Source: a virus. Taken from it: a stretch of 47,900 bases of DNA. The notes beneath the pieces were generated by a model. It was not told the origin of the DNA. It ran no database searches and saw nothing but the letters and a program-made list of their open reading frames with translations. The DNA is taken from IMG/VR virus record IMGVR_UViG_3300046330_000124, positions 1-47,900 of that record; one strand, written 5' to 3'. The translations under genes were made by a program, and so were the position numbers. Below, piece after piece: positions 1 through 47,900 of the stretch. Position 1 is the stretch's first letter, and every line of letters begins with the position of its first letter.

Positions 1-213
1 CTCATTTACAATAGCAGCATGATCCCATTCACCTTTGATGAACATGGAAGTATATCGCCCAGATTCATAAGATAAAAGGATGTCACCTGGTTTGATTCGC
101 ATCAACAATGAATCAATAATCTCAGTTGTAAATTCGTTCTCAATATATCCACGACGCTGAAACCATATTTGAATAGGTTTTAGAAATTGCAAAATGCGAC
201 TTCTTATTTGCAC
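1..213 (-). CDS. YiiX-like permuted papain hydrolase, N-terminal part (continues at 47900)
   Basis: This is the first 71 codons of a 185-aa protein whose remainder lies at 47900-47556; the codon ending at position 1 is followed in frame by the codon starting at 47900. It resembles permuted papain-like (YiiX / NlpC-P60 superfamily) amidohydrolases, which cleave peptide or amide bonds in cell-wall or lipid substrates. This part holds the PGDILL motif (residues 42-47) typical of the family start and WDHAAI with the presumed catalytic His65. The GTG start at 213 was chosen because AGGA lies six bases upstream; it overlaps the stop of the upstream lipoprotein gene. It ends the late operon beside spanin-like genes, so a role in lysis or wall processing is inferred. 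The substrate is unknown. Confidence 0.8.
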   Translation of the reverse strand, partial: MQIRSRILQFLKPIQIWFQRRGYIENEFTTEIIDSLLMRIKPGDILLSYESGRYTSMFIKGEWDHAAIVNE

Positions 214-488
214 TGTTTGTCCTGATATTTAAGATAACCTTTATTGAATTGTTCAGGTGTAATACAGATGTATCCGTTTTGACGAAGATCTAAAGGATTA
301 GTCTCAACAAACTGAGTCGTTATTGAACAGTCTTTATTGTCGAATGTAACCAACCGAGTGTTAACTTTATTCTCACGCATGTTGAGAGTGTGAACTTCAA
401 CTACTTCTTTACCTTTGCATCCACTAAGGGCGAGTAAAAAAATCGTCTTCAGCAGCAACAACTTCAGTATTTGTTTTTGTTGGGTCAC
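204..488 (-). CDS. Small outer-membrane lipoprotein, possible o-spanin
   Basis: A 94-aa protein with a basic start, a hydrophobic stretch (residues 7-21) and a lipobox LALSGC ending at Cys24. It should therefore be exported, cut by signal peptidase II and lipidated, leaving a mature part of about 71 residues. The mature part contains three more Cys residues. It starts with GTG, preceded by AGAGG, inside the end of the upstream membrane-protein gene (65-base overlap in another frame). This is the arrangement of Rz/Rz1 spanin pairs, which fuse inner and outer membranes at lysis. It is longer and less proline-rich than classical Rz1, so the spanin role is inference; the lipoprotein assignment is firm. 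Confidence 0.7.
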   Translation of the reverse strand: MTQQKQILKLLLLKTIFLLALSGCKGKEVVEVHTLNMRENKVNTRLVTFDNKDCSITTQFVETNPLDLRQNGYICITPEQFNKGYLKYQDKQCK

Positions 489-756
489 TTGTCACCTCTG
501 TGAGTTTAGCTAATTCTTCTTTACCTTCTTTGACGTGTAAGATATGATTCTTAGCGTGTTTTAGAAATGGTAAAACTACATATTTGAAAGCAGTTTTAAG
601 TATCCAACCATAAAAACCACCAGCAATAGAAGCAACATAATTACCACCATATTTCATAATCAGATCCAACAATGCAGATCCACTGTTGAATTTGAGCCAA
701 TCAACTATTGGGTCGTACCAGTTAGATTTAGTTTTAGTTGATTGACTCTCGCTCAT
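424..756 (-). CDS. Small membrane-associated protein, possible i-spanin or holin
   Basis: A 110-aa protein with a polar N-terminus, a hydrophobic/amphipathic middle (roughly residues 28-66, with a Gly-rich core YVASIAGGFYGWIL), a Lys/Glu-rich helix (about 66-88) and an acidic tail. The single hydrophobic region and the lipoprotein gene embedded in its 3' end suggest an inner-membrane lysis partner (i-spanin or holin). I do not recognise the family. It lies three bases after the stop of the upstream gene, in the same late operon. Hydrophobicity alone does not separate a holin from an i-spanin, since the hydrophobic part is not at the extreme N-terminus as in Rz. Confidence 0.6.
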   Translation of the reverse strand: MSESQSTKTKSNWYDPIVDWLKFNSGSALLDLIMKYGGNYVASIAGGFYGWILKTAFKYVVLPFLKHAKNHILHVKEGKEELAKLTEVTSDPTKTNTEVVAAEDDFFTRP

Positions 757-6952: not shown

Positions 6953-8869
6953 CTATACGTCCACTGGTTCAAAAAGCATTGCATCAAGAGTTCCCGAAAC
7001 AGGATTAGTCATAATTACTTTTGATCTTGATATACCTAATGTTGAAGCACTGGCTGGTGTTGCAGTAGGTGAGGCAGTCAAAGATACGTTAAAGTAAATG
7101 TTAACTAAACTATTACCTGATACGTTTGCCAATAAATATCCTAAAGCATTTGTTCCGTTATTTCTAAAAGGTATGAAAACTTTATCACTTTTTAGAACCG
7201 CTACGTTTGCAAATGATGATACAACTCCTGTGATTGTGTCAATCAATCCATCTCCCGAAGATGTAATGGTTGATCCATTTGACGAAGCTATTGCAAATAT
7301 TCCTGTGCTACCTGTTGCATTTGTAGCGACAGCTATAAATTTGGTCGAAGATAAAGCTGCGCATCTTAATGAGTTACATTGACCAATGGAAGATATTATA
7401 GCTTCTGTACCAAGAGTTATTGTCGTACCTGACACAGTAAAAGGTATTGCTCTTAAAACTGAACTTCTATTAAAAACACTGACATATGAAGTTAGACTTA
7501 ATTGTACAACAGTTGCAGACGTTGAAAACGATGCACCTGATATTGTTGTAACACCTGATACAGCTGAAATAATTCCACCTGATATTGTTAAAAAAGCTGC
7601 ATTAGAATTAAAAGTCCCTTGTCTGAATACTATCAGAACTTGAGTTGCCGATTGAGAGACAGCTGTCATTTTTCCGGCTACTTCAATCGTAATGGCTGTA
7701 CTTGTTTGGGCACCGACACTGATTGTTGATCCTGATATTGTTAATACTCGACCCATTAAGACCTGAGTACCTGTAGCAGCATAACACGCTAAAGCAGTAG
7801 TGGTTGTAAGTTTGGTGATAGAAAGTGCTCTATTGGTTGCGGCAGAATCTACCGTTACTATAGCTCCAAAGGTGATCACATTGTTTACAATATTCATCAC
7901 TACAGATTTTACAAACAGAGTAGTTACTTCATTCCATATAATAATGAATTGAGTGTCATTGAGTTGACACATTTCCGCAACAGCACCTGTATTATCAGCA
8001 GTTGAGATGGCTGTGTAAGCACTGTTGAAAAATTCAGTCATTGCTGTACTACCGTATGATTCATTACCAACAGCCCACACACCGTTTGCCGTAGTGTTAT
8101 CAGTTAAGTAAAAAGCAGCGCATTGACGTTTATCAATATGTGCGATTAAGTTTCCACCTGCATCTCGAATGTAGAGTGCAATCAATCCTGTATTCTTAAT
8201 AAAGAAAACTGCTCCACCTTCTTGAGTGGTTGTAGCGTCTGGTAAGATTACATTCGTATTTGCAACAGTTGATTCAATCATTTGAACTCTGTCACTTGTT
8301 GCAGTCAGTGTTAAATCAGAAGAAATAGAAGTTGTAGCTGATCCACCGTTGAGAGCACCTACTGCAAATTTACTACTTGTAATAGCACCAGTAGAAATCT
8401 TAACGTCTGTAACAGATCCATCACTTGGTACACCTGCGCTCAGTGCCGTACCATAATTGACTTGTATATTACCTGTTCCAGTTGGAGGAGCTTCAGTGAA
8501 AGTTAAAGTTGTAGTTGATATAGAGTAGGTAGCTTTTGCTTGATAGACACCATCAACAAATATGTGAGTATTTGTTATAGAGCCAGGATCACTTGTTAAA
8601 GTGAATATAGTTTGAGAACCTGTACCATTAAATGTATCAGATATAATATTTGATGGAGTTCCAGCTGAACCCAACTCAGCCCAGTCACCATTAGTGATAC
8701 CAGTTTTAAGAACATATGTTTTGGTATCAGAAACAACGTAACATTGAAGTCCTTGAAATCTACGACCTGCAACAATAGCATCACGAGCTGTAATGTCAGC
8801 CGCTGTAATACGATCATCTATTGGTTTTGTTGTCTGAACACCAAAGCTGTCTGTAATTAGAATACTCAT
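6953..8869 (-). CDS. Tail spike/fibre protein with about seven beta-propeller-like repeats
   Basis: A 638-aa protein. The N-terminal 60 residues (DSFGVQTTKPIDDRITAADI) and GTGSQTIFTLTSDPGS with IFVDGVYQ are typical attachment segments of phage tail fibres. From about residue 285 to the end there are six clear repeats and one partial repeat of 45-55 residues. Each has a short strand ending in a pattern such as LNDTQFIIIW, SATQVLIVFR, LTSYVSVFNR, LSSTKFIAVA or LKSDKVFIPF, then a return strand with an S/T-rich tip. This fits a seven-bladed beta-propeller. Receptor binding is inferred. Only three bases separate it from the upstream tail fibre gene. Confidence 0.7.
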   Translation of the reverse strand: MSILITDSFGVQTTKPIDDRITAADITARDAIVAGRRFQGLQCYVVSDTKTYVLKTGITNGDWAELGSAGTPSNIISDTFNGTGSQTIFTLTSDPGSITNTHIFVDGVYQAKATYSISTTTLTFTEAPPTGTGNIQVNYGTALSAGVPSDGSVTDVKISTGAITSSKFAVGALNGGSATTSISSDLTLTATSDRVQMIESTVANTNVILPDATTTQEGGAVFFIKNTGLIALYIRDAGGNLIAHIDKRQCAAFYLTDNTTANGVWAVGNESYGSTAMTEFFNSAYTAISTADNTGAVAEMCQLNDTQFIIIWNEVTTLFVKSVVMNIVNNVITFGAIVTVDSAATNRALSITKLTTTTALACYAATGTQVLMGRVLTISGSTISVGAQTSTAITIEVAGKMTAVSQSATQVLIVFRQGTFNSNAAFLTISGGIISAVSGVTTISGASFSTSATVVQLSLTSYVSVFNRSSVLRAIPFTVSGTTITLGTEAIISSIGQCNSLRCAALSSTKFIAVATNATGSTGIFAIASSNGSTITSSGDGLIDTITGVVSSFANVAVLKSDKVFIPFRNNGTNALGYLLANVSGNSLVNIYFNVSLTASPTATPASASTLGISRSKVIMTNPVSGTLDAMLFEPVDV

Positions 8870-8872
8870 GAA

Positions 8873-10144
8873 CTACCTCTTAAATGTATACTGGTACGAT
8901 CCAGCAACGACAGGGTTATTAAAAGCGTAGATTCGATAAGACTGTGCAGTTGCATCAAGACCTGTGATATTGGCTGTCGTTAATGTCCAAGCACCAATAG
9001 TCTCGAATCCGTTCACATCCAAGATGCTTGTTAAAGCTCCGTAAGATGCAGGATATGCAAAGTAAAACACATCTGTATCAATTGCTGAGAACACTACAAT
9101 TTTAGTTGCAGTTGATACAATAATATCTTTAGTAAGTGCAGCAACTTGTGCAGGTGTTAAACCAGCAGGATCTGCTCCGTAGTAATAAGGGTAAACAAAA
9201 GAGTATGTTGTATTTGCAGTAACTGTTGTGGGTCCACCAGTGTCACCATTGTCATCCACTTGTGCAGAGAATGAAGTGTTGTCTGTGAACGCTGGAGCGT
9301 ACACTGTTGTCTCTACTCCACCTGTTGGAATAGTTCCAGTCTTGGTATCAAGTAAAGTTACACCTTGATAGAAGCGAACCTCAGCAATTGGATCAGAACG
9401 CTTAGCTACTGTTGCAGTTAATGTGATTCCAGAAACTGAAGCACCTTTTTCACGAAGTGAATTTGATGATCCACCTAATGAGATTGTTGGTGGAGTGTAA
9501 GTAATTTGAATAATTTTATCTAAGGTATCTTGAAGATCAGTTGAAGTGAATTGCTCATTGAATCGTGCAGAGTAACCATCATAAGGTAATACGATTGCAT
9601 CAGATGTCAGACCTGCATCAGTCACAATGTCACCGATTGATTTTATTTCGATCACTAAACCTGTGTCGTCAAATACCGGAATACCGAAAGGTATTGGTTG
9701 AGTTGATATCTCAGTGTTAAGTCCTGTTGTATAACTTGCAGTATCACCAAAGCTTAAAGCACGAGATGACTTCTCAAACAACCGCTGAATAAGCGTTACG
9801 CAATAATCTAAAGCTTGTTCAATTTGTTTAAGTTTAAAGTCTTGTTGCTCTCTAAATTGAAACTCTTGCTTTGGTGATTCAATTCCAAGCTTCAAATAAA
9901 GCTTACGACCTACCGCTAAGTTCGCAGGCAGCGTAATAGATCCACCACCACGAACAGCGTCGAAGGTGACCGATGTGACGTTTATTAAGTCGTCACCGTT
10001 CTCAACGAATACTGGAAGACCTGTGGTGGTATTAAACACCATGATCAACAGTTCATCAGCCGACTTGATTTTGAATGGAAATGTATAGGTTGCAAGATTC
10101 CCTGCACCCACGTAAGAGACAAATTTTACATAATTATTTACCAT
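8873..10144 (-). CDS. Tail fibre protein with T7 gp17-like N-terminal domain
   Basis: A 423-aa protein. Residues 1-140 resemble the T7 gp17 N-terminal domain that docks fibres on the tail: YVGAGNLATYTFPFKIKSAD, then LNV/LINVTSVTF with GGSITLP, and EFQFREQQDFKLKQIEQALD. The rest is beta-rich and probably forms a trimeric shaft and tip, with an immunoglobulin-like segment around residues 220-310 (TLTATVAKRSDPIAEVRFYQ) followed by a C-terminal beta domain. It lies between the internal virion proteins and the propeller-like protein, as expected for a fibre that anchors further receptor-binding proteins. Confidence 0.8.
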   Translation of the reverse strand: MVNNYVKFVSYVGAGNLATYTFPFKIKSADELLIMVFNTTTGLPVFVENGDDLINVTSVTFDAVRGGGSITLPANLAVGRKLYLKLGIESPKQEFQFREQQDFKLKQIEQALDYCVTLIQRLFEKSSRALSFGDTASYTTGLNTEISTQPIPFGIPVFDDTGLVIEIKSIGDIVTDAGLTSDAIVLPYDGYSARFNEQFTSTDLQDTLDKIIQITYTPPTISLGGSSNSLREKGASVSGITLTATVAKRSDPIAEVRFYQGVTLLDTKTGTIPTGGVETTVYAPAFTDNTSFSAQVDDNGDTGGPTTVTANTTYSFVYPYYYGADPAGLTPAQVAALTKDIIVSTATKIVVFSAIDTDVFYFAYPASYGALTSILDVNGFETIGAWTLTTANITGLDATAQSYRIYAFNNPVVAGSYQYTFKR

Positions 10145-18393: not shown

Positions 18394-21066
18394 CTAAGTA
18401 GATACATCTAGTATAAGCGAAACTATTTCCAAAGGTAAAGGATCAACTTGTCGAATACAGACCTTACCGTTAAGTCCCCAGTCACTATATGGTCGATATC
18501 TGCGACTTACGACTTTCTCGGCTATCGGCATGTTCGCTTGATCATCCTCTGACCACATGTCAGCGTCTTCCATTCCTTGGACTTTACCATCGGTAGGGAA
18601 CACACCTGACACGTAGGCTCCTCTAGTTCTAGAGTAGCGTACTACAACATCATTGACTATTTTGGAGTCTAACGATAAGGATCCATCCTTGGAATCAATC
18701 TCAAGAGTTTCAACGTCTGACGTATAAGGTAGACCTACAACAGTGATATGTTTCGGATCTGGTAAATTTAAAATTCCACCAGCTCCAACAGTCAATACTG
18801 TAGTGTGTTCGATATTATTGTTAGGTGAAGACAAAACATCACCGTCGCCAATGACACTGACTTCACGACCTTCAAGATGCTCTAATCCTATCACTTGCGT
18901 GTGACATTCAAATATTTCAAACGTAACTGGAACACTCGGTGACTGTAAAGACTCTGGAAGTTCACGATCAGGACGGAACACCGCTTCCCCAGGAGCACCT
19001 ACAACAGCCGATATAAGCTCTAGATAAACACGCTCTGCTCTATCTTCTGTATATGCAATGAATGTCTCACCGATTCGATCTGTAAAGTATGTTCCTACAG
19101 GACCTTCGTACTTAAGATCTTCTGACCAATCTCCCTCAAATAGTGCCAAGCTAATGATAACCGGAACACCGTTCACTAATTGAAAAGATAAAGACGAGTG
19201 AGAGAAAGTGCGTAATGTTTCAGGAGTTAATAAGATTCTTTTACTGAATATCTCAATTGTTCTCACACCTTGGCGATTAACAACAGCTATCAAGTATTCT
19301 AATCCTGTACTCTCTTCACGATATGTAATTACTGACTCGTACTCTCCATCAGTATTATGTTTTGTCCAAGCTAACAATTGAGCGTCAGGCTCGTAAGTCA
19401 AAGTTAAAGCTGTTCCATCGTCCATGACAACAAACAACACTGGATTGTCACCATTTAAAAATGTCCAAGACTTAACTTTTTTACCGTAGAACAAATGGTT
19501 ATTGTAAAGTGAAATGTCTGTTGCAACCATTGATTTAATGTTGTCATCAAAAGATAACGTCTTGATACTATTAGTTGTTTTATCAACAAACAAAACCCCA
19601 TAAGGAGTCAACATTGGTGGTATATTCTCATCAGTAATCCAGTTACCGATTTTACGAATAAGTGGATTTAACGAAGATAAAGGTTCATCTGATCCACCGT
19701 ACCACACACCTTTAGATGTAAAAATAATTACACCGCTTGCATCCAGTACATCAAGAATACGCGGTCTGTTTACACCTACTTTTAAATTAAAAGGAGTAGC
19801 ATCCGTAAGTGGAAAATCTCTTAAATAATAATTAGGAATATTTACCTTACTTGCAAACAAGACATCGTCGTCCATCAACAACAAACGAGAGTTATAATTA
19901 TTAAGGTTTGTAACCTTATAAAACTCAAGCGTTGAGTCTTCTATGTCTTTTAAATTTACAGGAAGTCCAGGTGGAGGATTTGTGTAATCAGCATCTTGTC
20001 CGTAATCAATATATTCTACATCTATCGAAAGACCAGTAAGATCTCCAATGTTGTTAGACACTTGACCAATTAAACCCCAACCTTCTGGACTAGATCCAGG
20101 TGCAGACAATTCGTTAGGTTTACGATACACATTAAAATGACTAATCTTTTCAGCATATTTTGGTTCAAATATAGAAAGATCATTTATTGTAAATAGAGTA
20201 GATTGAGTCCCTGTCGGTATTTTTACATAAGTAGAAGTAAGAGGATCTGTAGATATATAAGAAGAAACTCTGCGAATCAAAGACTCTTGATCATCTGTTG
20301 TAACACATGTAATTCCATAAATTACATTATGTCCAACTCGCGCAAGCATGTTAGCTTGAGTATCGTTGTAATTCATTGTGATAGCTGGAGCATTTTTAAA
20401 CGCTGGATAAGTTACGTCTACACCATAATAACCAGCTAGTCCTGTTTGTAAAAAAACCCAATTGGCATTTAATATTCCACCTTGGAGTTGATAAATATTA
20501 CCAGTCGAAGATATGTAAACTTTCATGGAAACATATCTGTTCCCAGCTGCTATAGCATCTCTTGCGGTATTATCAACATAGGTCTCAATATATTTAGAAC
20601 GACGAACCACATTGGTTCCATCGAATCTAAAGGCTTCTAGGTTCTTGTCTTTACATGCAACATATACCCAATACTGTTTAGAGTTAGGTACAATCACATC
20701 CTCAACAGTTTCAAATTTTAATTTAATAAGATCATCTGCTGTATAATCTGTAGCAGTAGTTGCACTAGGTGCATTGTTACGATAATTCTCGGTCTCTAAG
20801 TCTGTAAGGTCGTACGCTCGCACGTAACCTACGCCGAACTCTAACAAGTATGCCAAGTTCTCAGGAACGTAAATTCTGACGTTCTCATCATTGTTTGATG
20901 TAGTGTTCAAAAACCAAGTACCTGGAAAATTAACCAAGCGACCTGTTTTATTTACGAAGACATTGAGTGCGGTTTTTAAACCAGAATAATAAGATTTAAT
21001 ATCTGTCTTGTCGTGCAACGAGGGATCTAATTCCCCTGACGCAAAACTAGCTTTTTTAGAATACAT
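18394..21066 (-). CDS. Tail nozzle / tubular protein B-like
   Basis: An 890-aa protein beginning MYSKKASFASGELDPSL, a conserved opening of podovirus tail-stabilisation or nozzle proteins, followed by YYSGLKTALNVFVNKTGRLVN-type sequence (residues about 25-45). The body is beta-rich. It ends with conserved blocks RRYRPYSDWGLNGKVCI and LPLEIVSLILD. The ATG at 21066 is used because it overlaps the TAA of the adaptor gene (TAATG); a start further upstream would run into that gene. In the particle it should form the distal tube below the adaptor ring and portal. The next gene begins the internal ejection proteins. Confidence 0.75.
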   Translation of the reverse strand: MYSKKASFASGELDPSLHDKTDIKSYYSGLKTALNVFVNKTGRLVNFPGTWFLNTTSNNDENVRIYVPENLAYLLEFGVGYVRAYDLTDLETENYRNNAPSATTATDYTADDLIKLKFETVEDVIVPNSKQYWVYVACKDKNLEAFRFDGTNVVRRSKYIETYVDNTARDAIAAGNRYVSMKVYISSTGNIYQLQGGILNANWVFLQTGLAGYYGVDVTYPAFKNAPAITMNYNDTQANMLARVGHNVIYGITCVTTDDQESLIRRVSSYISTDPLTSTYVKIPTGTQSTLFTINDLSIFEPKYAEKISHFNVYRKPNELSAPGSSPEGWGLIGQVSNNIGDLTGLSIDVEYIDYGQDADYTNPPPGLPVNLKDIEDSTLEFYKVTNLNNYNSRLLLMDDDVLFASKVNIPNYYLRDFPLTDATPFNLKVGVNRPRILDVLDASGVIIFTSKGVWYGGSDEPLSSLNPLIRKIGNWITDENIPPMLTPYGVLFVDKTTNSIKTLSFDDNIKSMVATDISLYNNHLFYGKKVKSWTFLNGDNPVLFVVMDDGTALTLTYEPDAQLLAWTKHNTDGEYESVITYREESTGLEYLIAVVNRQGVRTIEIFSKRILLTPETLRTFSHSSLSFQLVNGVPVIISLALFEGDWSEDLKYEGPVGTYFTDRIGETFIAYTEDRAERVYLELISAVVGAPGEAVFRPDRELPESLQSPSVPVTFEIFECHTQVIGLEHLEGREVSVIGDGDVLSSPNNNIEHTTVLTVGAGGILNLPDPKHITVVGLPYTSDVETLEIDSKDGSLSLDSKIVNDVVVRYSRTRGAYVSGVFPTDGKVQGMEDADMWSEDDQANMPIAEKVVSRRYRPYSDWGLNGKVCIRQVDPLPLEIVSLILDVST

Positions 21067-21680
21067 TATGACAACCTTGCTTTGACTAAAGTCGAGCGCA
21101 TCCATTCAGGTTGATAGATAGATGTCTCAGATGCGTCTTTGCGTTTAGCTTCTATAATAGCTTTTTCATATCGCATTTCAATACTACGAATTACATTCTC
21201 TGAATTTTTACCAACAATTAATGGAGCCGCAGATTGTGCAAGTCTTAATGAAATACAAAGAACCGCTTCAGCGTTAAGATCTCCAATGTTTATGTCATAT
21301 GGAATAAACTCAGCACGAGCGTTTTGTTTATCGGTAAATATTACTTTTACTCCGTCGAGCATTTGGACCTTGCGATCAACAGATGTCTCTTCGTCGTCAG
21401 TAATAACACCAGATTCGATTCGTCTCAAGAACGCACAATTAACTGGATACCTATAAGCATAAGTCCAGTCTTCATTAGGGTCAACTTCAAGCAATTCTAA
21501 ATCCGCAGTCATAGCTGTAGAATCTAAATCCATCTCTTGGAGCATGATTTGAAACGACGTATCCCAGAGATTATTTAAAGTAAGTGCTTCTGTTGACGTA
21601 TCTGTTTCAGAATTTGAAATTCTTTTTTGAAGAAACAACGCGCTCAAAGCAAGATTAAAAATCTTTGTTTTATCCCACAT
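21066..21680 (-). CDS. Head-tail adaptor / tail tubular protein A-like
   Basis: A 204-aa mostly helical protein with an opening typical of adaptors (KIFNLALSALFLQKRI, then LNNLWDTSFQIMLQEMDL), a middle ending WTYAYRYPVNCAFLRRI, and a helical C-terminus (VLCISLRLAQSAAPLIVGKN, then YEKAIIEAKRKDA). The WTYAYRYP block is a hallmark of podovirus tail tubular A / gp4-like adaptors that bind below the portal. It lies just upstream of the nozzle gene with a TAATG overlap, as in other short-tailed phages. Confidence 0.8.
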   Translation of the reverse strand: MWDKTKIFNLALSALFLQKRISNSETDTSTEALTLNNLWDTSFQIMLQEMDLDSTAMTADLELLEVDPNEDWTYAYRYPVNCAFLRRIESGVITDDEETSVDRKVQMLDGVKVIFTDKQNARAEFIPYDINIGDLNAEAVLCISLRLAQSAAPLIVGKNSENVIRSIEMRYEKAIIEAKRKDASETSIYQPEWMRSTLVKARLS

Positions 21681-26563: not shown

Positions 26564-28108
26564 TTAAAAGTCTTTATATGGATCGTATTCCACTTGAGGG
26601 TGGTCTAGTTCGTAAACATCCCTTACCTCTTGTGTAGTATTCTCCGGTAGCCGATCAATTATATGCCTGCTGAACCTTAAAACAAAAGCATCTGACATAT
26701 CTGGAGAACCTCCAACACGCTTTCTAATGTCATCTTTTGGTTCGGCCTGCTTCTTTAATGTTGTTCTGTTTCTCGTGCCTTTAGTCCAGCATAACTCTTT
26801 TTTAAGTTTGTCTCGCCACTCATCTTTTGCAACGTCAATTATTCCACCAGTTGCTAACCACTTCTCCGCCTCGTAATACATCTGCGCTCGCATGTTCTGA
26901 TACTGAGAGTCTTTGAACTCAGGTGTATCATTTGGAGTAGACGCAAAACTTACCAGCTCCCAGTTGTATCTATTTTGTGCTTGAGCAAACGAGAACACCG
27001 CACTACCCTCGGCCTGATCTATCAACACATGATCCACTTTATACTCACGCTCCAACGCACACATCTTCTGATAAGTGTAGACGTGAGTTTGTCCTTCTTC
27101 TTTATTCAATTTATAATAGTCTACAAGTTTTGAATACCGTCCTTGATGGATGAAAATCGCACAGTAATCTCCCCCAGTCCAAGCTAAATCGGCAGTCATT
27201 ATACAAGGTAGAAAGCTTTGAGAACTAATGTCAAAGTCTGTCACACTCATGGCTTGTTCTACACGACTTGCTGATATAATCGAGTCTTTCGACGACTTCC
27301 GCGGTAAACCTCTTACTCGAACCCTAAAGTCATCATGGTCCTCGTTTCCGCCACACTCACGAAGTATCTCGTCAGTGAACGCTTTGGAAACGTGCGATAG
27401 AGTTCGTGTATCAATTCTTACCCCACGCCAATCAGGACTTATCATCTTCTGTTCAAACGCCGACTCTGGATCATCGGAATTGGCCATTGCAAGCCAAACC
27501 TTTATTGTATCCACATCCGTCATCGCACCATTGGCATACTTCCATACAACCGATGGAATACCTGCCGACTCCTCAAACCATAGTAATATTGCATTATTTT
27601 TATTATGAAGTCCTGATATCGCAGCTGGATTATTCTCATCCCAGGTAAATTGATCCGTTCTCCAATTCTCCCTCAACCTCTCATCTCGACTTTTGATCGA
27701 CTCTCCAAGCTTCTCAAACGTCTCGTTAAAGTACCGAGCACGGTTACACCACACGTCCAACTCCGGCCATACTATCGACTTCAACTGACTATGTGTATTG
27801 GCTGTCACTCGTGCTCGCAGCTTTTGAGAATACATGAGCATTATATTTGTCATTGAACCAAAGGCTGTCTTGGCTGATCCATTCCCACTCGACAACGCTA
27901 ACTTATAAGGTATGTCTCTAGTTGCTGGGTCTTTGAAGTGTTTCGACATTAGTCGCCACTCTTGCAGCTGCCAGTCATAAGGAGCAGCGTTCTCAAGGTC
28001 CGTCCCCTCTTCACCAAAAGGAAATATAATGTACACCAGTTTCTCATAGTCGTATCTGTACTTCTCTATCAACTGACCAAACGCTTTGAAGTCTTCCATT
28101 TTACTCAT
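26564..28108 (-). CDS. Terminase large subunit
   Basis: A 514-aa packaging ATPase-nuclease. Walker A-like SSGNGSAKT spans residues 73-81, and ILLWFEES (about 174-181) is the Walker B with catalytic Glu. The RNase H-like nuclease domain shows MTADLAWTGGD (Asp307), VLIDQ (Asp364) and GSPDMSDAF (Asp470/Asp473). The ATG at 28108 is chosen because it overlaps the sigma-factor TGA (ATGA) and has GGAG eight bases upstream; an earlier start inside the sigma gene would be required otherwise. It acts with the small subunit encoded two genes upstream. The packaging mode (direct terminal repeats, cos or headful) cannot be told by eye. Confidence 0.9.
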   Translation of the reverse strand: MSKMEDFKAFGQLIEKYRYDYEKLVYIIFPFGEEGTDLENAAPYDWQLQEWRLMSKHFKDPATRDIPYKLALSSGNGSAKTAFGSMTNIMLMYSQKLRARVTANTHSQLKSIVWPELDVWCNRARYFNETFEKLGESIKSRDERLRENWRTDQFTWDENNPAAISGLHNKNNAILLWFEESAGIPSVVWKYANGAMTDVDTIKVWLAMANSDDPESAFEQKMISPDWRGVRIDTRTLSHVSKAFTDEILRECGGNEDHDDFRVRVRGLPRKSSKDSIISASRVEQAMSVTDFDISSQSFLPCIMTADLAWTGGDYCAIFIHQGRYSKLVDYYKLNKEEGQTHVYTYQKMCALEREYKVDHVLIDQAEGSAVFSFAQAQNRYNWELVSFASTPNDTPEFKDSQYQNMRAQMYYEAEKWLATGGIIDVAKDEWRDKLKKELCWTKGTRNRTTLKKQAEPKDDIRKRVGGSPDMSDAFVLRFSRHIIDRLPENTTQEVRDVYELDHPQVEYDPYKDF

Positions 28109-28578
28109 TTTAAATACTCCAATAACTCTGCACTCACCTTCAACCACCCATGTCTATAGTTGGCTTTAGTCGTGTCATAATTCCATCCATACATCCGACT
28201 CACCTCAACTAAAGGTACACCCTCAACGAGCCGCATCCACACCACTCGTAGTTGCTTCCCCTCTAACCGCTTGGTTAGTATGTCCTCGATGTCACGCATG
28301 TCGAAGTGTCCCATCACTCTTGGGTCATACACTCCGTCGGTCTCCATCGCATCACGCTTGTCGCGTCGTAATGCGTTCTTAGCCATGTTGTGAGCAATGA
28401 TATAGAACCAACCCTTTAGTCGACTCTCATCACCTAACTGCGAAGCTCTCTCGGCCATCCTCACCACCGCATCCGCTACGACATCACGACACCAATGCTT
28501 GTCACGACCATATCGACTGAGCGATCTCTCAATCACACCTCTATGTAAAGCTATCTCACTCCACTGTGCCTCAGTCAT
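28105..28578 (-). CDS. Phage ECF-type RNA polymerase sigma factor
   Basis: A 157-aa protein with the two conserved parts of extracytoplasmic-function sigma factors. Region 2 is at about 29-72 (ADAVVRMAERA, then SRLKGWFYIIAHNMAKNALRR), and region 4 is at about 105-155 (LEGKQLRVVWMRLVEGVPLV, then a turn and SRMYGWNYDTTKANYRHGW). It lies between the two terminase genes with overlaps at both ends (8 and 4 bases). It should direct host RNA polymerase to phage promoters, probably late ones, replacing the missing single-subunit polymerase. The promoter motif is unknown. It could instead act as an inhibitor of host sigma; the intact region 2 and 4 favour a working factor. Confidence 0.85.
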   Translation of the reverse strand: MTEAQWSEIALHRGVIERSLSRYGRDKHWCRDVVADAVVRMAERASQLGDESRLKGWFYIIAHNMAKNALRRDKRDAMETDGVYDPRVMGHFDMRDIEDILTKRLEGKQLRVVWMRLVEGVPLVEVSRMYGWNYDTTKANYRHGWLKVSAELLEYLK

Positions 28579-29242
28579 CTACCTCTACCTTACTTGCCTC
28601 TATAGCAAAGCTATTTTTAATAGGGTCATCGGACAAACGTAGTGTATCTGTTACATCACGACCCAACGCACGCTCCTCCGCCTTAGCCAGCAGTACCGCA
28701 GCCAAGTTCCCACCGATCTCGTGTTTGATAGTGGTCTCGTCTTTAAAGACTCCGTCATATTTCCCGATCATCTCTAGACCACGAAGTTTGTCGTAGAACT
28801 CGATTGTTTTAATGTAACCTGTGTGTACGTCCATACCATTGATGTCCTTCTCCCACACCTCGCGCACGACCATCTTTTTAATAGCACGACGAGTAGAGGC
28901 TGGAATGTCATCAATAGCTTTTACGGTTCCGTCTTTATGGAAGACATCTATCGGGTCATACTGAGCTATCTCATTTGTTCGCTCTAAGATCTCGCTTGCA
29001 TCGAAGTTAGCTTTACGACCGGATATAAGGTTTATCTGTTTGATACACTCCTGTACGTCAGGTTTATTTAGTATTGTTACACCTTGAGTGGGTTTAAGGC
29101 CAACAAGCTTTGCTGCTTCACCTGCGTGTCGACACTGAAGGTAGACGTTGATGAAGCCAACAATTAATGGATCCATAGAGTGTTGCGGTTCCAAGTATTG
29201 ATAGATCAGGGAGTCGATTGTAGGTTGTACAGCTTTATTCAT
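28571..29242 (-). CDS. Terminase small subunit
   Basis: A 223-aa protein with an N-terminal helix-turn-helix region (FINVYLQCRHAGEAAKLVGL, then a following PDVQECI segment, about 30-68) that should bind the packaging site. The blocks YDPIDVFHKDGTVKAIDDIP (about 94-113) and the later IEFYDKLRGLEMIGKY are typical of the Terminase_2 family of podovirus small subunits. It is the first gene of the leftward block, next to the control region. No strong sigma70 promoter is visible directly upstream on its strand. Confidence 0.85.
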   Translation of the reverse strand: MNKAVQPTIDSLIYQYLEPQHSMDPLIVGFINVYLQCRHAGEAAKLVGLKPTQGVTILNKPDVQECIKQINLISGRKANFDASEILERTNEIAQYDPIDVFHKDGTVKAIDDIPASTRRAIKKMVVREVWEKDINGMDVHTGYIKTIEFYDKLRGLEMIGKYDGVFKDETTIKHEIGGNLAAVLLAKAEERALGRDVTDTLRLSDDPIKNSFAIEASKVEVDD

Positions 29243-29720
29243 ATTATTTAATTGTTTGTCGAAGTGGGGGATAGTGTCAAGAGTGTTACAGTGTTTAGGT
29301 TAATAAAATCTAGAGTTTTTACATGTTAAACATTGTAACGTCTGGAAAAGATTGGAAAAATATATCAAAATTTTTTACAGGAAAAAGATTAGGAAAAATT
29401 ACGAAAAATATTGGAGGCCTCCCCACACACCACCGCACAAACTTTATTTTTTGATGCCACCCTAACGATTCTTTTCATCCTCAAACATTTTTCATCACAA
29501 TGTAACACTCGCACCACGTTGTGCATATCTTACAATTCATCATGTAAATCATTCAGTCTTTAAAGTTTTATAACAATTGCACGTGGCATACGACTTGGCA
29601 CACACAATGCAATGTATATCAATACGTTCGATATGACACATTATGCTTAAATATACGACAGCGTAATAGGCTCACCATTGAACGATCGACAACGGACGCA
29701 ACATAAGACAAGGGGATAAA
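29243..29720. promoter_or_regulatory. Divergent control region, left part
   Basis: 478 bases without a convincing gene between the small terminase and the 29721 reading frame. The area is AT-rich with A-runs (29343-29410) and a GGAGGCCTCC palindrome at 29413-29422. It contains scattered relatives of the AAACAWTGTTT motif (AAACATTGTAAC at 29328, ACAATGTAAC at 29497). The same ten bases TGTAACACTC occur rightward at 29501-29510 and leftward at 29290-29281. A TTGACA box lies on the leftward strand near 29270-29280, but no good -10 follows at normal spacing. Likely holds the late promoter and perhaps part of an origin. Confidence 0.5.
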
Positions 29721-29963
29721 TTGAAACATAACCAACAAGACATTAAAGGCAATGAACAAGACATAACGAACGTAAAACTGATCAATGACATTGTGATAAT
29801 GATCCAAAAGATGGAAAATAGTAAACATTGTAACAGTGACCTTAAACATTGTTTATATTTTAAAGACGTACTTAAACAATGTTTACTTGAACGAGACGAA
29901 ACAATGTTTAATATTAGGTTGAAAGCCTTAAACAATGTAATATCTAAACAATGTTTATTGTAA
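29721..29963 (+). CDS. 80-aa reading frame lying within the operator-like repeats
   Basis: An 80-aa frame with TTG start, preceded by AAGGGG six bases upstream. The first 45 residues are ordinary (IKGNEQDITNVKLINDIVIM), but from there the protein is made of repeated KHC or KQC units (SKHCNS, LKHCLY, LKQCLL, SKQCLL) because the AAACAWTGTTT elements run through it. It may be a real early peptide, or a chance frame in a DNA element. The opposite strand holds two hydrophobic frames (29619-29935) that look like mirrors of this sequence. I cannot decide between coding and non-coding. Confidence 0.3.
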   Translation: MKHNQQDIKGNEQDITNVKLINDIVIMIQKMENSKHCNSDLKHCLYFKDVLKQCLLERDETMFNIRLKALNNVISKQCLL

Positions 29964-30055
29964 GTGTTACAATGTAATATCTAAACAATGTTTCACATTA
30001 ACGCGACGAGTCTGCATAAATATGCAAACATTGTTTAAAAAATAAACATTGTCAC
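29823..30055. repeat. Array of AAACAWTGTTT near-palindromes (operator or iteron array)
   Basis: About ten copies of an 11-bp motif that is a palindrome apart from its central base. Copies begin at 29823, 29844, 29874, 29899, 29930, 29946, 29968 (variant TTACAATGTAA), 29983, 30026 and 30044, separated by 15-43 bases. Some copies have one half changed to TGTAA. Such a cluster can be an array of operators for a dimeric DNA-binding protein, or iterons of a replication origin. It lies directly upstream of the rightward promoter and between the two transcription blocks. The 36988-37191 HTH protein is a possible binder, by inference only. Confidence 0.7.
29932..29993. repeat. 25-bp perfect direct repeat
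   Basis: The same 25 bases occur at 29932-29956 and 29969-29993, 37 bases from start to start, with 12 bases between. Each copy joins one ACAATGTAA half-changed motif to one complete AAACAATGTTT motif through the linker TATCT. The second copy begins just after the stop codon of the 29721 frame. The exact identity over the linker shows that the unit is longer than the 11-bp motif. Confidence 0.85.
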
Positions 30056-30075
30056 ACCAAGTCATGACAAAAAAC

Positions 30076-30104
30076 TTGATTTTTTCAAGAAGTCATGCTA
30101 AAAT
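30076..30104 (+). promoter_or_regulatory. Sigma70-type early promoter
   Basis: TTGATT at 30076-30081, a 17-base spacer and TAAAAT at 30099-30104 form a good host-type promoter pointing to the early genes. Transcription would begin near 30111, within the inverted repeat TTATTGTT-T-AACAATAA (30109-30125). The -35 box is inside a small hairpin CTTGA/TCAAG, and the GTCATGAC palindrome at 30061-30068 lies just upstream. The repeat array upstream could control it. Confidence 0.65.
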
Positions 30105-30108
30105 TAAA

Positions 30109-30125
30109 TTATTGTTTAACAATAA
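30109..30125. promoter_or_regulatory. Inverted repeat at the predicted early transcription start
   Basis: TTATTGTT-T-AACAATAA is a palindrome of 8-bp arms around one central base. It covers the expected +1 of the promoter at 30076-30104, the classical place of an operator that blocks initiation. Its AACAAT arm resembles the half-site of the upstream AAACAAT motif, so the same protein may bind. Confidence 0.55.
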
Positions 30126-30194
30126 TGGGTAAAAGGTTATACCTTTGGAGGAGCTTCTCTGAAGCGAAGCCTCCTCAGATAACTTTCCCATTAT
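30122..30194 (+). ncRNA. Structured 5' leader or small RNA element
   Basis: A 73-nt segment closed by a perfect 8-bp stem ATAATGGG (30122-30129) / CCCATTAT (30187-30194). Inside are AAAGGT-TAT-ACCTTT (30132-30146) and GAGGAG (30148-30153) / CTCCTC (30171-30176), which encloses a further GCTTC-TCT-GAAGC hairpin (30153-30165). The strand 30131-30140 can alternatively pair with ATAACTTT (30179-30186), so two folds compete. It is not a tRNA (no T-loop sequence). No U-run follows, so it is not a plain terminator. It would be at the very 5' end of the early transcript. Leader control, RNA stability or an independent RNA are possible. Confidence 0.55.
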
Positions 30195-30326
30195 AAAAAC
30201 GAATACTTTTTAATTTTAGACCTCTAAATGTGAGCTTTAAAACCAATATAGTAGATATGAGATCAAAATCGCTATGCAATGTAATAACTCGCTATTATTA
30301 CACTAACAATAAGAAAAGGGACAATC
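30195..30326 (+). promoter_or_regulatory. Early leader region before first gene
   Basis: The 132 bases between the structured element and the first early gene are AT-rich and hold no gene. A TGCAATGTAATAAC element near 30275 recalls the half-changed repeat motif. The ribosome site AAAAGGG is seven bases before the ATG at 30327. No second clear promoter was found. Confidence 0.4.
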
Positions 30327-30617
30327 ATGAAACAATCCGTAAACAAGTGGACATTCCACGACGCTTTCAAAGGTATTCAATACGAGCGTAATTTCTCATA
30401 TCAAGGATTAAATGTATTATTCGACTATTTAGAATCATACGAACAAGACACCGACACTGAGATAGAGTTAGACGTCACATCACTGTGCTGTGACTATACA
30501 GAGGCTGAAATAGCTACTGTATTGGCTGATTATGGTTATTCAGATATTGACGAGTTGAGAGACAATACGACAGTGATTGAGGTCGATGACGAGACTGTAA
30601 TATATGGAGCGCATTGA
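30327..30617 (+). CDS. First early protein, unknown function
   Basis: A 96-aa acidic protein, the first gene of the rightward block. The start is supported by AAAAGGG upstream. It has a helix-rich N-terminus (WTFHDAFKGIQYERNFSYQG), a pair of adjacent Cys (LCCDY, about 51-55) and a very acidic C-terminus (VIEVDDETVIYGAH). Acidic small early proteins often bind host proteins such as RNA polymerase or nucleases, but nothing in the sequence shows the target. It is followed by the next gene with a two-base gap to ATG. Confidence 0.7.
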   Translation: MKQSVNKWTFHDAFKGIQYERNFSYQGLNVLFDYLESYEQDTDTEIELDVTSLCCDYTEAEIATVLADYGYSDIDELRDNTTVIEVDDETVIYGAH

Positions 30618-34489: not shown

Positions 34490-34671
34490 ATAATTATCCA
34501 CCAGGATTCGATCCACAAATGTTAGAAGATGACTCAAAACCGATACCTTTTGATCAATTACTAACCGAACATGGTGATTGTGAGTGGTGTCATAGAAAAG
34601 ATCTTGATCTATTTAAAGGTCAATGTGAAACTTGCTACAACTCTGATCCAGAGTTTTTTGAAAAGGAATAA
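34486..34671 (+). CDS. Small double-CxxC zinc-finger protein
   Basis: A 61-aa acidic protein with two Cys pairs, CEWC (about 32-35) and CETC (about 47-50), spaced by 11 residues; this should form a single zinc ribbon. The N-terminus is Pro/Asp-rich (NNYPPGFDPQMLEDDSKPIP). Such proteins often bind nucleic acid or a protein partner. Its ATG overlaps the upstream stop (ATGA) and its stop lies one base before the amidase ATG. Confidence 0.6.
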   Translation: MNNYPPGFDPQMLEDDSKPIPFDQLLTEHGDCEWCHRKDLDLFKGQCETCYNSDPEFFEKE

Positions 34672-34672
34672 T

Positions 34673-35572
34673 ATGAATAGAGAAGATTTATACACTATTC
34701 GATGGTTTGCGAAAAAAATTAAACAGGAATCAACCGATCCTCATGTTGATTCACTATGTGACCAACAGATTGCTTTGATCTCACAAGTATTGGGTGAAGC
34801 AGTACCGGAAGATGTAAAGCCTGAAGAGCCTGATCGTCCCGATACTAATCCTACAGTACCTGTAACTACACCTAAACCAGTGTTTTTGACTAAACTTGGT
34901 GAGAAGAAACTTTGGTATCCAGATGCGATTCAAGTCCCAAAGATGAAGGCTAAAGGAAATTATCCTAATAATTATCCAGCAGGGGTCGTTGTACATTTTA
35001 CAGCTGGTAGATATGAAAATGGTTTTGAAAATGCTAAATCATCTTGTGCTTACGGAGCTACTCAAGGTTATTTATATATGTGCATGGGTACTGACGGTAA
35101 GATTGCACAACCTAATAATCTATCTGAGTGGGGTTATCATGCTGGTGAGTCCGCATGGGAAATTAACGGTAAAAAAGTCAAAGGTGTTTCAGATCGACTA
35201 ATGGGGATGGAAATGTGTAATCCTGGACGATTGGGATTGAAAAACGGAAAGTATTATACATATTACGACACTAGCTTTAAAAACCCTATTGAACCTAAAG
35301 ATGTTCGCATCATTAAAGAGAGCAAGGACTCTCAATTTGCAGGCGCATATTTACCTTATACTAAAGAGCAAGAGGCGGCACTAGTTAAATTCTTACTTTG
35401 GATGAAGTGGAATAATCCAAGTGTATTTAATTTCGACTATGTTTTAGGTCATTGCGAAGTGGCTGGAATGCGTGGAATAGGTTACTGGAGAAAAAACGAT
35501 CCGTCAGGGGCACTTTCTATGGACATGGATTCATTTAGAGCTTTACTTAAAAAAGAATATGCGAAGTTATAA
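34673..35572 (+). CDS. N-acetylmuramoyl-L-alanine amidase endolysin
   Basis: A 299-aa endolysin that should cut the amide bond between N-acetylmuramic acid and the peptide of peptidoglycan. Residues 1-60 are an acidic helical/linker region; the amidase_2 domain follows at about 75-295. Likely zinc ligands are His108 (VVVHFTAG), His260 (LGHCEV) and Asp276 (KNDPSGAL), with GYHAG around His156 in the active site. The ATG at 34673 has AAGGA seven bases upstream. There is no signal peptide, so a holin is needed for release. Its 3' end abuts the inserted HNH gene. Confidence 0.85.
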   Translation: MNREDLYTIRWFAKKIKQESTDPHVDSLCDQQIALISQVLGEAVPEDVKPEEPDRPDTNPTVPVTTPKPVFLTKLGEKKLWYPDAIQVPKMKAKGNYPNNYPAGVVVHFTAGRYENGFENAKSSCAYGATQGYLYMCMGTDGKIAQPNNLSEWGYHAGESAWEINGKKVKGVSDRLMGMEMCNPGRLGLKNGKYYTYYDTSFKNPIEPKDVRIIKESKDSQFAGAYLPYTKEQEAALVKFLLWMKWNNPSVFNFDYVLGHCEVAGMRGIGYWRKNDPSGALSMDMDSFRALLKKEYAKL

Positions 35573-44266: not shown

Positions 44267-46204
44267 ATGCGAAAATACTTAACGTACGACCTTGAGGTCA
44301 TGCCAAATATATTCACGTTCTGTTGTTACATTGAAGACATCAATCAATGGTTTCTTTATGAGATATCTGATCGTAAGGATCAGAAGCAAGAGCTTGTCGA
44401 TTTTTTAAACTGGGCTTGTAAAGAGGACTATTACTTTGTTGGCTATAACAATGTTGGTTTTGACTACGAGTTTCTTCACGCTTTGTTAATGAACTCTTCT
44501 AGATTTACTTGGCAATTTGCTGCTGAGCTTTGTCAAATTTTAATCAGCTGGGATAGAGAACAAAGATTTCCTATTAGATTTAAAGATCGTTTAATTAAAC
44601 AAATAGATTTATATTTGATCAACCACTTCAACAATAAAGCTCGTGCTACGTCACTAAAAGCTTTACAGTTTAACATGCGTTGCGAGTCTGTAGAAGACTT
44701 ACCTTTTGATATCAAACCTTTGACAGACGAAGAGAAAGATATATTGATTCAATACAACTTTCATGATGTTAAAGAAACCCACACCTTCTTTAAAAAATGT
44801 AGACACTTGATAGAAATGCGACACGACCTTGAAGCAACAGGTATGATTTATGGTGACGTATTAAATTACTCAGATGTTAAAATAGGTTCAGAGTTCTTGA
44901 TTAAACAAATAGGTCGAGACAAGTGTTACAAAGACGGACAGATGCTTCAGACTCAACGATACTCTGTTAACTTAAAGGATGTTATACTTCCAAAGATTGA
45001 GTTCCGTGACGACTCTTATGATGAAGTACATGATTGGTTTAGAACACAAACTTGGTACAGAGACAAAGAGAACAACATTAAGTTAGAGAAAACCATCAAT
45101 GGATTTACATTTGACTTCGGTCTTGGTGGACTTCACGCATCAGTTGAGAGTAAAACATTTGTAACAAATGATGAGTGGACTATCGTAGATCTAGATGTTG
45201 CTTCACTTTATCCGAGTATCTCAATTGCTAATAACTTATATCCTGAACACCTGGGTCAGACGTTTGTTGAGAAGTACAAGAACTTAAAAGCTGAACGCTT
45301 TAATCATAAGAAAGGTACACCTTTAAACGCCATGTTTAAATTGGCGTTAAATGGCGCATTTGGTAATAGTAATAACCAATACTCACCGTTCTACGATCCG
45401 AAATACATGTTAAGTATAACCATAAATGGTCAGCTTCAAATCCTTCAATTGGCTGAACAGCTATTCTCAGTCCCTCATGTTGTACCGATCCAAGTTAACA
45501 CCGATGGTATTACCTGTTATGTCAGAAATGATATGCGATATTTATTTAATCTTCATAGAGACGAATGGCAGAAGGACACAGGATTAGAGTTGGAAGAAGT
45601 CGAGTATTCTAAGATGTACATCCGAGATGTAAATTCGTATATGGCACTTACTAAGACAGGTAAGATTAAAGCTAAGGGTGCTTACTGGTATCCCGAAACT
45701 GATTCCGATTATGATGGATTCTGGAATAAGGACTTCTCATCAATGGTAGTGCAAAAGTCTATTCGTCATGTGCTGTTGGATGGTGTTAATCCTCACCACA
45801 TCGTGCGACTGTTCACTGATCCGTATGATTTCATGCTTCGATACAAGACTCCTCCTGGTGCCAAGGTAATGATCGGTGACAAGCCTTGCTCTAAAACTGT
45901 TCGATACTATGTGTCAAAGTCTGGCTTCCCTATGCAGAAGATATCTATTCCGAAAGGTCAGATGGGTACTTGGAAACGTAAGAACTCTCTCAGTGATGAA
46001 TATTTTCAGAGCATCATGAAAGAGATTCCCGAAGGTACATGGGATGCAAGGATTCATACCGCCAACAAATCTAAATACGATACTGTTGTCACTTCGATTG
46101 AATCTGGTAAGCTTGTCAAACATTGTAATGACATCCACAATTTTAATTGGGACGATGTGGACTTCGATTACTATGCAAAAGAAGTGGAGAAGTTAGTCAT
46201 ATGA
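44267..46204 (+). CDS. Family B DNA polymerase, compact
   Basis: A 645-aa replicative polymerase. The proofreading domain is complete: ExoI YDLEV (Asp8, Glu10), ExoII YNNVGFDYEF (60-69) and ExoIII YNFHD (Tyr163, Asp167). Polymerase motif A is VDLDVASLYPSIS (Asp308/Asp310), motif B KLALNGAFG (Lys358-Asn362) and motif C VNTDGI (Asn411-Thr-Asp413), where the usual first Asp is Asn. Only about 48 residues separate A and B, so there is no TPR1-type insert; a protein-primed mechanism is unlikely, consistent with the separate primase. No ribosome site is visible before the ATG, but later starts would remove ExoI. The end overlaps the next gene (ATGA). Confidence 0.85.
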   Translation: MRKYLTYDLEVMPNIFTFCCYIEDINQWFLYEISDRKDQKQELVDFLNWACKEDYYFVGYNNVGFDYEFLHALLMNSSRFTWQFAAELCQILISWDREQRFPIRFKDRLIKQIDLYLINHFNNKARATSLKALQFNMRCESVEDLPFDIKPLTDEEKDILIQYNFHDVKETHTFFKKCRHLIEMRHDLEATGMIYGDVLNYSDVKIGSEFLIKQIGRDKCYKDGQMLQTQRYSVNLKDVILPKIEFRDDSYDEVHDWFRTQTWYRDKENNIKLEKTINGFTFDFGLGGLHASVESKTFVTNDEWTIVDLDVASLYPSISIANNLYPEHLGQTFVEKYKNLKAERFNHKKGTPLNAMFKLALNGAFGNSNNQYSPFYDPKYMLSITINGQLQILQLAEQLFSVPHVVPIQVNTDGITCYVRNDMRYLFNLHRDEWQKDTGLELEEVEYSKMYIRDVNSYMALTKTGKIKAKGAYWYPETDSDYDGFWNKDFSSMVVQKSIRHVLLDGVNPHHIVRLFTDPYDFMLRYKTPPGAKVMIGDKPCSKTVRYYVSKSGFPMQKISIPKGQMGTWKRKNSLSDEYFQSIMKEIPEGTWDARIHTANKSKYDTVVTSIESGKLVKHCNDIHNFNWDDVDFDYYAKEVEKLVI

Positions 46205-46526: not shown

Positions 46527-47294
46527 ATGAAGATATTGATTTTTGATATCGAGACAGCTCCAATAAAAGCTTATGTTTGGGGACTTTGGGATCAGAACGT
46601 CGCTTTAAATCAAATCCACACAGACTGGTTCATCCTCTCATGGTCTGCTAAGTGGTATAAAGATTCACCTAAAAATATATTATATCGAGACCAACGTAAT
46701 GCGAAGAACGTAGAGAATGATAAGAAGACTCTCTTAGCCATTTGGAAACTACTCGACGAAGCTGATGTTGTTATTACTCAGAACGGTAAGAAGTTTGATC
46801 AAAAGAAACTTAACGCTCGTTTCATTTTAAATGGAATGAAACCTCCAAGTCCATATCAACACGTAGATACACTTCAGATTGCCAAGAAACACTTCGCATT
46901 TACCAGCAATAAACTTGAGTACATGACTGATAAGCTATGCACCAAGTATAAAAAGATTACCAACAAAGGTCGTAAGTTCTTTGGATTTGCTCTATGGGAC
47001 GAATGTCTAAAGGGTAACTTAGTTGCTTGGCGTGAAATGGAAAAGTATAATAAGTATGACGTACTGTCTTTAGAGGAGCTTTACACTAAGCTTCAAGTCT
47101 GGGACACCTCTATCAACTTCAGTATCTACGATGATGGTCTTCGTCCTATGTGTAATTGTGGAAGCTTTCAATTAGAAAAACGGGGCTTTTTTATTACATC
47201 ACGGGGTAAATATCAACGCTATCAATGTAAGAAGTGTGCCAAGTGGCACAGCTCTACAAAGTCAATCAAGCGAATTGACGTAAAGGCTATATGA
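46527..47294 (+). CDS. DEDD-type 3'-5' exonuclease with C-terminal zinc ribbon
   Basis: A 255-aa RNase H-fold nuclease. Key residues are Asp7 and Glu9 (FDIETAP), Asn86 and Asp91 (QNGKKFD), Asp114 (HVDTL) and Tyr174-Asp178 (YNKYD), the exonuclease set also seen in YprB-like proteins. A Cys4 zinc ribbon follows (CNC at 209-211 and CKKC at 234-237). It is separate from the exonuclease domain inside the polymerase, so it may act on host DNA, RNA ends or recombination intermediates. The ATG at 46527 keeps DIET close to the start. The end overlaps the next gene. Confidence 0.75.
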   Translation: MKILIFDIETAPIKAYVWGLWDQNVALNQIHTDWFILSWSAKWYKDSPKNILYRDQRNAKNVENDKKTLLAIWKLLDEADVVITQNGKKFDQKKLNARFILNGMKPPSPYQHVDTLQIAKKHFAFTSNKLEYMTDKLCTKYKKITNKGRKFFGFALWDECLKGNLVAWREMEKYNKYDVLSLEELYTKLQVWDTSINFSIYDDGLRPMCNCGSFQLEKRGFFITSRGKYQRYQCKKCAKWHSSTKSIKRIDVKAI

Positions 47295-47555: not shown

Positions 47556-47900
47556 CTATTTCCTAGAATTGTAAATCAAACTTAAGTGTCTTGAGTTAAG
47601 GTAGTCGATAGGTAATATGTCGTCGTCTGCATCTATATGATCCATGAAAAATTTATTAAACGGAAGATAACAATGATACACAAGTTCAGAACAATAAATA
47701 GTCTTGTCGTCTTTTGTAAAACTATAATCATAATTTCTACCAACAAAATCATTGGATTTTTTGGCAGACTCTATTGCTGATTCGGCTAAGTATCGCAGCA
47801 CACAGATGTGATTCTTTTTCCATAACCACTCTTCTAGTTTTACTTTACGAACTCCACCTATATTTTTACTGTTAACAAACTTATCACCAACAGCTTCAAC
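47556..47900 (-). CDS. YiiX-like permuted papain hydrolase, C-terminal part (continues from position 1)
   Basis: Codons 72-185 plus stop of the gene that starts at 213. The frame is open from 47900 to the TAG at 47556 and joins in frame to the codon ending at position 1, giving VNE|VEAVGDK across the window ends. This part supplies the presumed acidic residue Glu73 (VEAVG), LEEWLW (about 93-98) and the nucleophile Cys141 in YCSELVYHCY. His65 from the other part, Glu73 and Cys141 make the expected set in the permuted order. The gene is the last of the late operon and ends four bases from the convergent hairpin. Confidence 0.8.
   Translation of the reverse strand, partial: VEAVGDKFVNSKNIGGVRKVKLEEWLWKKNHICVLRYLAESAIESAKKSNDFVGRNYDYSFTKDDKTIYCSELVYHCYLPFNKFFMDHIDADDDILPIDYLNSRHLSLIYNSRK

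Follow-up and report, generated by a model that had tools for sequence, protein, structure and literature searches.

A Peptidase C92 Hydrolase Gene Divided between the Ends of a 47.9-kb Virus Record: Evidence for a Circular Map and a Probable Small Gap at the Join

The Gene Crossing the Record Ends

The window analyzed here, 47,900 bp in length, comprises the IMG/VR virus record IMGVR_UViG_3300046330_000124 in full. A leftward gene for a C92 hydrolase was found to be divided between its two ends. The 5′ part (positions 1..213, minus strand, read from 213 to 1) has 71 open codons from a GTG start, and its translation finishes with ...GEWDHAAIVNE, in which the WDHAAI motif holds the family His. 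The 3′ part (47556..47900, minus strand) has 114 open codons, VEAVGDK...YCSELV...YNSRK, followed by a stop, and holds the Glu (VEAVG) and the Cys (YCSEL). Joined 5′ to 3′, the two halves form a single frame of 185 aa which passes from base 1 to base 47900 without a shift, just as the sequence-only reading had described. The motifs follow in the order PGDILL, WDHAAI, VEAVG and YCSEL, which that reading had given as correct for the family and which the joined protein bears out. Six-frame reading across the join gave 190 open codons in the frame of this gene, with no more than 45 in any other.

Directly upstream of the hydrolase gene, and overlapping it, is a gene for a small protein of 94 aa (204..488, minus strand) with a lipobox-like LALSGC motif and a weak match to phrog_5705 (unknown function), which is in turn overlapped by an upstream gene for a 110-aa protein (424..756, minus strand). 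Counterparts of both are present at the same position in the two relatives described below (L002 and L007). It is possible that the small genes at 204-756 and the hydrolase gene make up a lysis or envelope cassette; an Amidase_2 endolysin is encoded away from it (34571-35572, plus strand). On the other side of the junction, the last annotated rightward gene (46527..47294, plus strand) encodes a DNA polymerase exonuclease subunit (phrog_403, E 7.6e-90) and faces the hydrolase gene where the two arms of the genome converge. The 3′–5′ exonuclease subunit is encoded in the window as a gene separate from that of the DNA polymerase (44267..46204, plus strand; phrog_1252). The sign of the GC skew changes at ~30 kb (29242-30327), at the start of two divergent arms which converge at the record ends.

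Membership of the Peptidase C92 Family

In a profile search, the joined 185-aa protein matched Peptidase_C92 (PF05708) with 65.5 bits (E 7.9e-18), above the gathering cut-off of 27 bits, while for the halves alone, which match consecutive stretches of the profile, the scores were 14.4 and 45.3 bits. The corresponding proteins of the two relatives scored 55.5 and 63.6 bits. Residues H65, E73 and C141 of the joined protein occupy columns which are invariant with YiiX, YaeF and others, and His, Glu and Cys are all present only in the joined protein and in neither half. Their order, His-Glu-Cys, is the one common to this permuted papain-like YiiX/YaeF family. The search of the joined protein which the sequence-only reading had proposed placed it in the family but far below the cut-offs of the YiiX and YaeF equivalogs (NCBIfam NF007458 and NF008552), with 33.7 bits against a cut-off of 216 and 21.2 bits against a cut-off of 279, respectively. 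Judged by its sequence, the split gene belongs to the C92 family and encodes a YiiX/YaeF-type hydrolase, but is neither YiiX nor YaeF proper.

Scans of bacterial genomes found no relatives of this protein. In named phages the only relative found was a partial match (29%) in an unannotated record of 4.3 kb. Among the other terminase or polymerase relatives of the window it was found only in record G002. The late arm ends with the hydrolase gene, and at this place Vibrio phage MZH0603 (MN592897, 43,006 bp) has genes of the lysis type, for TMhelix proteins and a DD-peptidase. The protein may attack the envelope of the host during lysis, a tentative guess.

Genome Organization and Phage Identity

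The window encodes a capsid protein, terminase, head-tail adaptor and tail-tube proteins, together with an internal virion protein and a complete set of replication genes. The terminase large subunit (26564-28147, minus strand) matches those of epsilon15-type phages, with ~31% identity to that of epsilon15 itself, and terminase and capsid show 31–35% identity to the epsilon15/phiV10 podoviruses. The phage would be a tailed one whose capsid and terminase are akin to those of epsilon15-type podoviruses. Among named genomes, the closest one found is that of MZH0603, with 40% identity for DNA polymerase and 33% for capsid; its layout is like that of the window in that leftward head and tail genes meet rightward replication genes.

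The terminase small subunit is encoded at 28571-29242 (minus strand), the whole terminase region (26564..29242) being distant from the junction. Between the two subunit genes lies a gene for a sigma-70 region 2-like protein of 157 aa (28105-28578, minus strand; PF04542, E 9e-8; phrog_1740), which is also found in the relatives G001 (47%) and L018 (25%). On the basis of this match it is possibly a late-gene sigma factor.

The tail-protein genes look as if they had been duplicated and exchanged. The N-terminal part of the protein encoded at 6953-8869 (minus strand) resembles, by shared matches, residues 177-222 of that encoded at 18394-21105 (minus strand), and in L002 modules of the proteins encoded at 8873-10144 and 6953-8869 are present in several copies.

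Relatives Spanning the Join

Two relatives carry the C92 protein unbroken through the point at which the window is cut. The first, L002, is encoded on contig G001 (IMG/VR 3300049919_000150, 45,171 bp) and is 58% identical to the joined protein; the second, L007, is 48% identical and continues through the cut point within the unbroken contig of record G002. On one of these proteins the N-terminal half aligned to residues 10-79 (E 1.9e-31) and the C-terminal half to residues 84-198 (E 1.5e-44), and each half, placed alone, fell on the matching part of the other as well. As both halves match successive parts of the same protein in two relatives, the in-frame junction is not due to chance, in agreement with the sequence-only reading.

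Colinearity of contig G001 with the window extends around the circle and through the join. The shared order runs from terminase, portal, capsid and tail genes to the C92 gene, and then, on the opposite strand, to DNA polymerase, single-strand binding protein, exonuclease, primase and helicase, with identities of 64% for terminase, 68% for capsid and 58% for the C92 protein. The tail protein encoded at 8873..10144 (minus strand; 50.8% to G001) and the DNA polymerase (62.5% to G001) have their counterparts in G001 on the near side and the far side, respectively, of the C92 gene. G001 differs from the window in having extra copies of tail genes and, at the junction, four additional residues, and no counterpart of the exonuclease-subunit gene at 46527-47294 was found in it. 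It is also opened at a different place, in the terminase small-subunit gene, whereas the window is opened in the C92 gene. This contig served as a control, as its own ends do not join: the cut terminase small-subunit gene is without its remainder at the other end. A cut gene need not find its other half, and for this reason the join in the window is meaningful.

Three full-length terminase relatives have sizes close to the 47,900 bp of the window, namely G008 (48,032 bp), G014 (48,837 bp) and G013 (44,923 bp). Their ends overlap by 79 bp, 98 bp and 98 bp (with two mismatches), respectively, each at a different gene, that of G013 being inside DNA polymerase. These look like assembly overlaps on arbitrarily cut circles; a terminal repeat at a fixed place would look different. 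The proposals that the window is a whole genome, that it was opened at an arbitrary point and that its gene order can be read around a circle are supported by these comparisons: colinearity with G001 and the 44.9–48.8 kb of the relatives indicate an essentially complete phage, the relatives are opened elsewhere (G001, G008, G014 and G013) or run through the cut point, and the order in G001 matches that of the window through the join.

A Four-Residue Shortfall at the Junction

The two relatives read DHAAIVDDELFVIEAVGD and DHAVIVSSRGTVVEAVGD where the join gives DHAAIVNE-VEAVGD, which is four residues short exactly at the junction. When 20 residues from each side were placed without gaps, exactly four residues of the relative were left between them, in L002 and L007 alike. 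It had been held that a relative continuing differently after residue 71 would speak against the join; both relatives do depart from it there in a mild form, by four extra residues, after which the frame resumes. L002, L007, Escherichia coli YaeF and a Priestia protein have a spacing of 11 between the invariant His and Glu, and E. coli YiiX has one of 14. In the joined protein it is only 7, outside the normal spacing of 11 or 14 in the members measured, and the deficit falls exactly at the join.

No direct or inverted terminal repeats were found between the window ends, which lack an identical overlap of the kind seen in G008, G014 and G013. It is probable, given the four additional residues in both relatives, the His-Glu spacing of 7 and the absence of an end overlap, that ~12 bases are missing from the record where position 47900 meets position 1. 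The intact gene would then probably have the normal His-Glu spacing, the shortfall being a gap in the record. A search for the exact DNA pattern across the join, with 0–30 bases allowed between its sides, matched no other viral contig, and no near-identical contig from another sample showing the missing bases was found. An AlphaFold model of a relative's C92 protein had a mean pLDDT of 44, too low to position the four residues.

Interpretation of the Record Ends

The window had been described as a closed circle. That its ends neighbor each other is supported by the crossing gene and the colinear relatives; exact closure is not, the join being about four codons short. The reading which we consider likely is that of a complete or near-complete tailed-phage genome with a circular map, cut arbitrarily in the C92 gene and with ~12 bases lost, i.e., a gapped circularization. 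DNA with a circular map would have been assembled and then opened at an arbitrary point within the hydrolase gene, and ~12 bases, corresponding to four codons located between those for the catalytic His and Glu, would have been lost from the record at the cut through assembly or trimming and not through a real deletion.

A circular assembly map is expected where the DNA of a tailed phage is terminally redundant, permuted, or replicating as concatemers. The virion DNA of tailed phages is usually linear with redundant or permuted ends, and that of this phage would presumably be the same. A circular map is no proof of circular virion DNA or of a closed DNA circle.

Losses of this kind have been reported. 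Flye assemblies had missing bases at the start or end in 13 of 22 cases, the worst being a 13-bp deletion (PMC8442456), and this assembler often leaves out tens of bases at the start or end of a circular contig (PMC6966772). Short-read assemblies of T7-like phages lose the terminal repeats and become linearized mid-genome (PMC10438801). The gap in the window is similar in size to that of the published Flye gapped circularization, but here it was deduced from protein relatives and not from reads. A gap left by a long-read assembler would be the best-documented candidate for the cause. The junction gap would seem to be an ordinary assembly artefact and no biological surprise.

Alternatively, the record could be an exact circle, the phage having a C92 protein truly four residues shorter through a 12-bp in-frame deletion at the contig cut. 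Such a deletion would be in keeping with the unbroken frame at the join and with the internal consistency of the record. However, it would need to fall exactly at an arbitrary cut (~1 in 185 for the C92 gene alone) and would take the His-Glu segment below the 11 or 14 of the C92 proteins measured, and an exact circle would be expected to show an end overlap as in G008 and G014, unless this had been trimmed. We regard this explanation as unlikely.

Less probable again is a linear genome which physically terminates at the record ends in short cohesive 3′ overhangs of ~12 nt, lost when the library was blunted. Known cohesive ends are about 12 nt in size, which the gap matches, and the window has no end overlap. 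Cohesive-end sites normally adjoin the terminase small-subunit gene, but here that gene (28571-29242) lies ~29 kb or ~19 kb from the ends, which fall inside the conserved hydrolase gene; moreover, the relatives either are opened in different genes, where their ends overlap by 79–98 bp, or are unbroken through the C92 gene. Cohesive ends at a cut within a gene, far from the terminase genes at 26564-29242, are unlikely. The associated proposal of a podovirus which cuts its genome inside a conserved hydrolase gene, loses its ~12-nt cohesive end in the library and has the gene whole only after circularization in the host is more doubtful still. A near-complete linear fragment whose two ends are adjacent by coincidence would fit the lack of a terminal repeat, but is highly improbable, as random ends would fall within 12 bp and in frame on a 48 kb circle with a chance of ~10^-4 (our own estimate) and as the truncated control G001 has ends which do not join.

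The gene order of the window wraps around, and the gene set of the phage is probably complete. A C92 gene called on the rotated sequence would look whole, yet be without about four codons between two catalytic residues, and the 185-aa protein is not fit for annotation as it stands. Matching both ends of a contig to a relative's protein is a cheap test for gapped closure in other viral records.

A grouping of contig ends on the upstream side of the terminase was considered as a sign of physical ends there and was rejected, the positions being scattered and the set small (n = 13). Eight of these 13 terminase relatives (L018, L019, L021, L022, L023, L025, L026, and L027) have a contig end at most 1.9 kb upstream of the large-subunit gene, and none of the 13 has one within 1.9 kb downstream of it. 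The upstream ends may mark a packaging start or a variable region.
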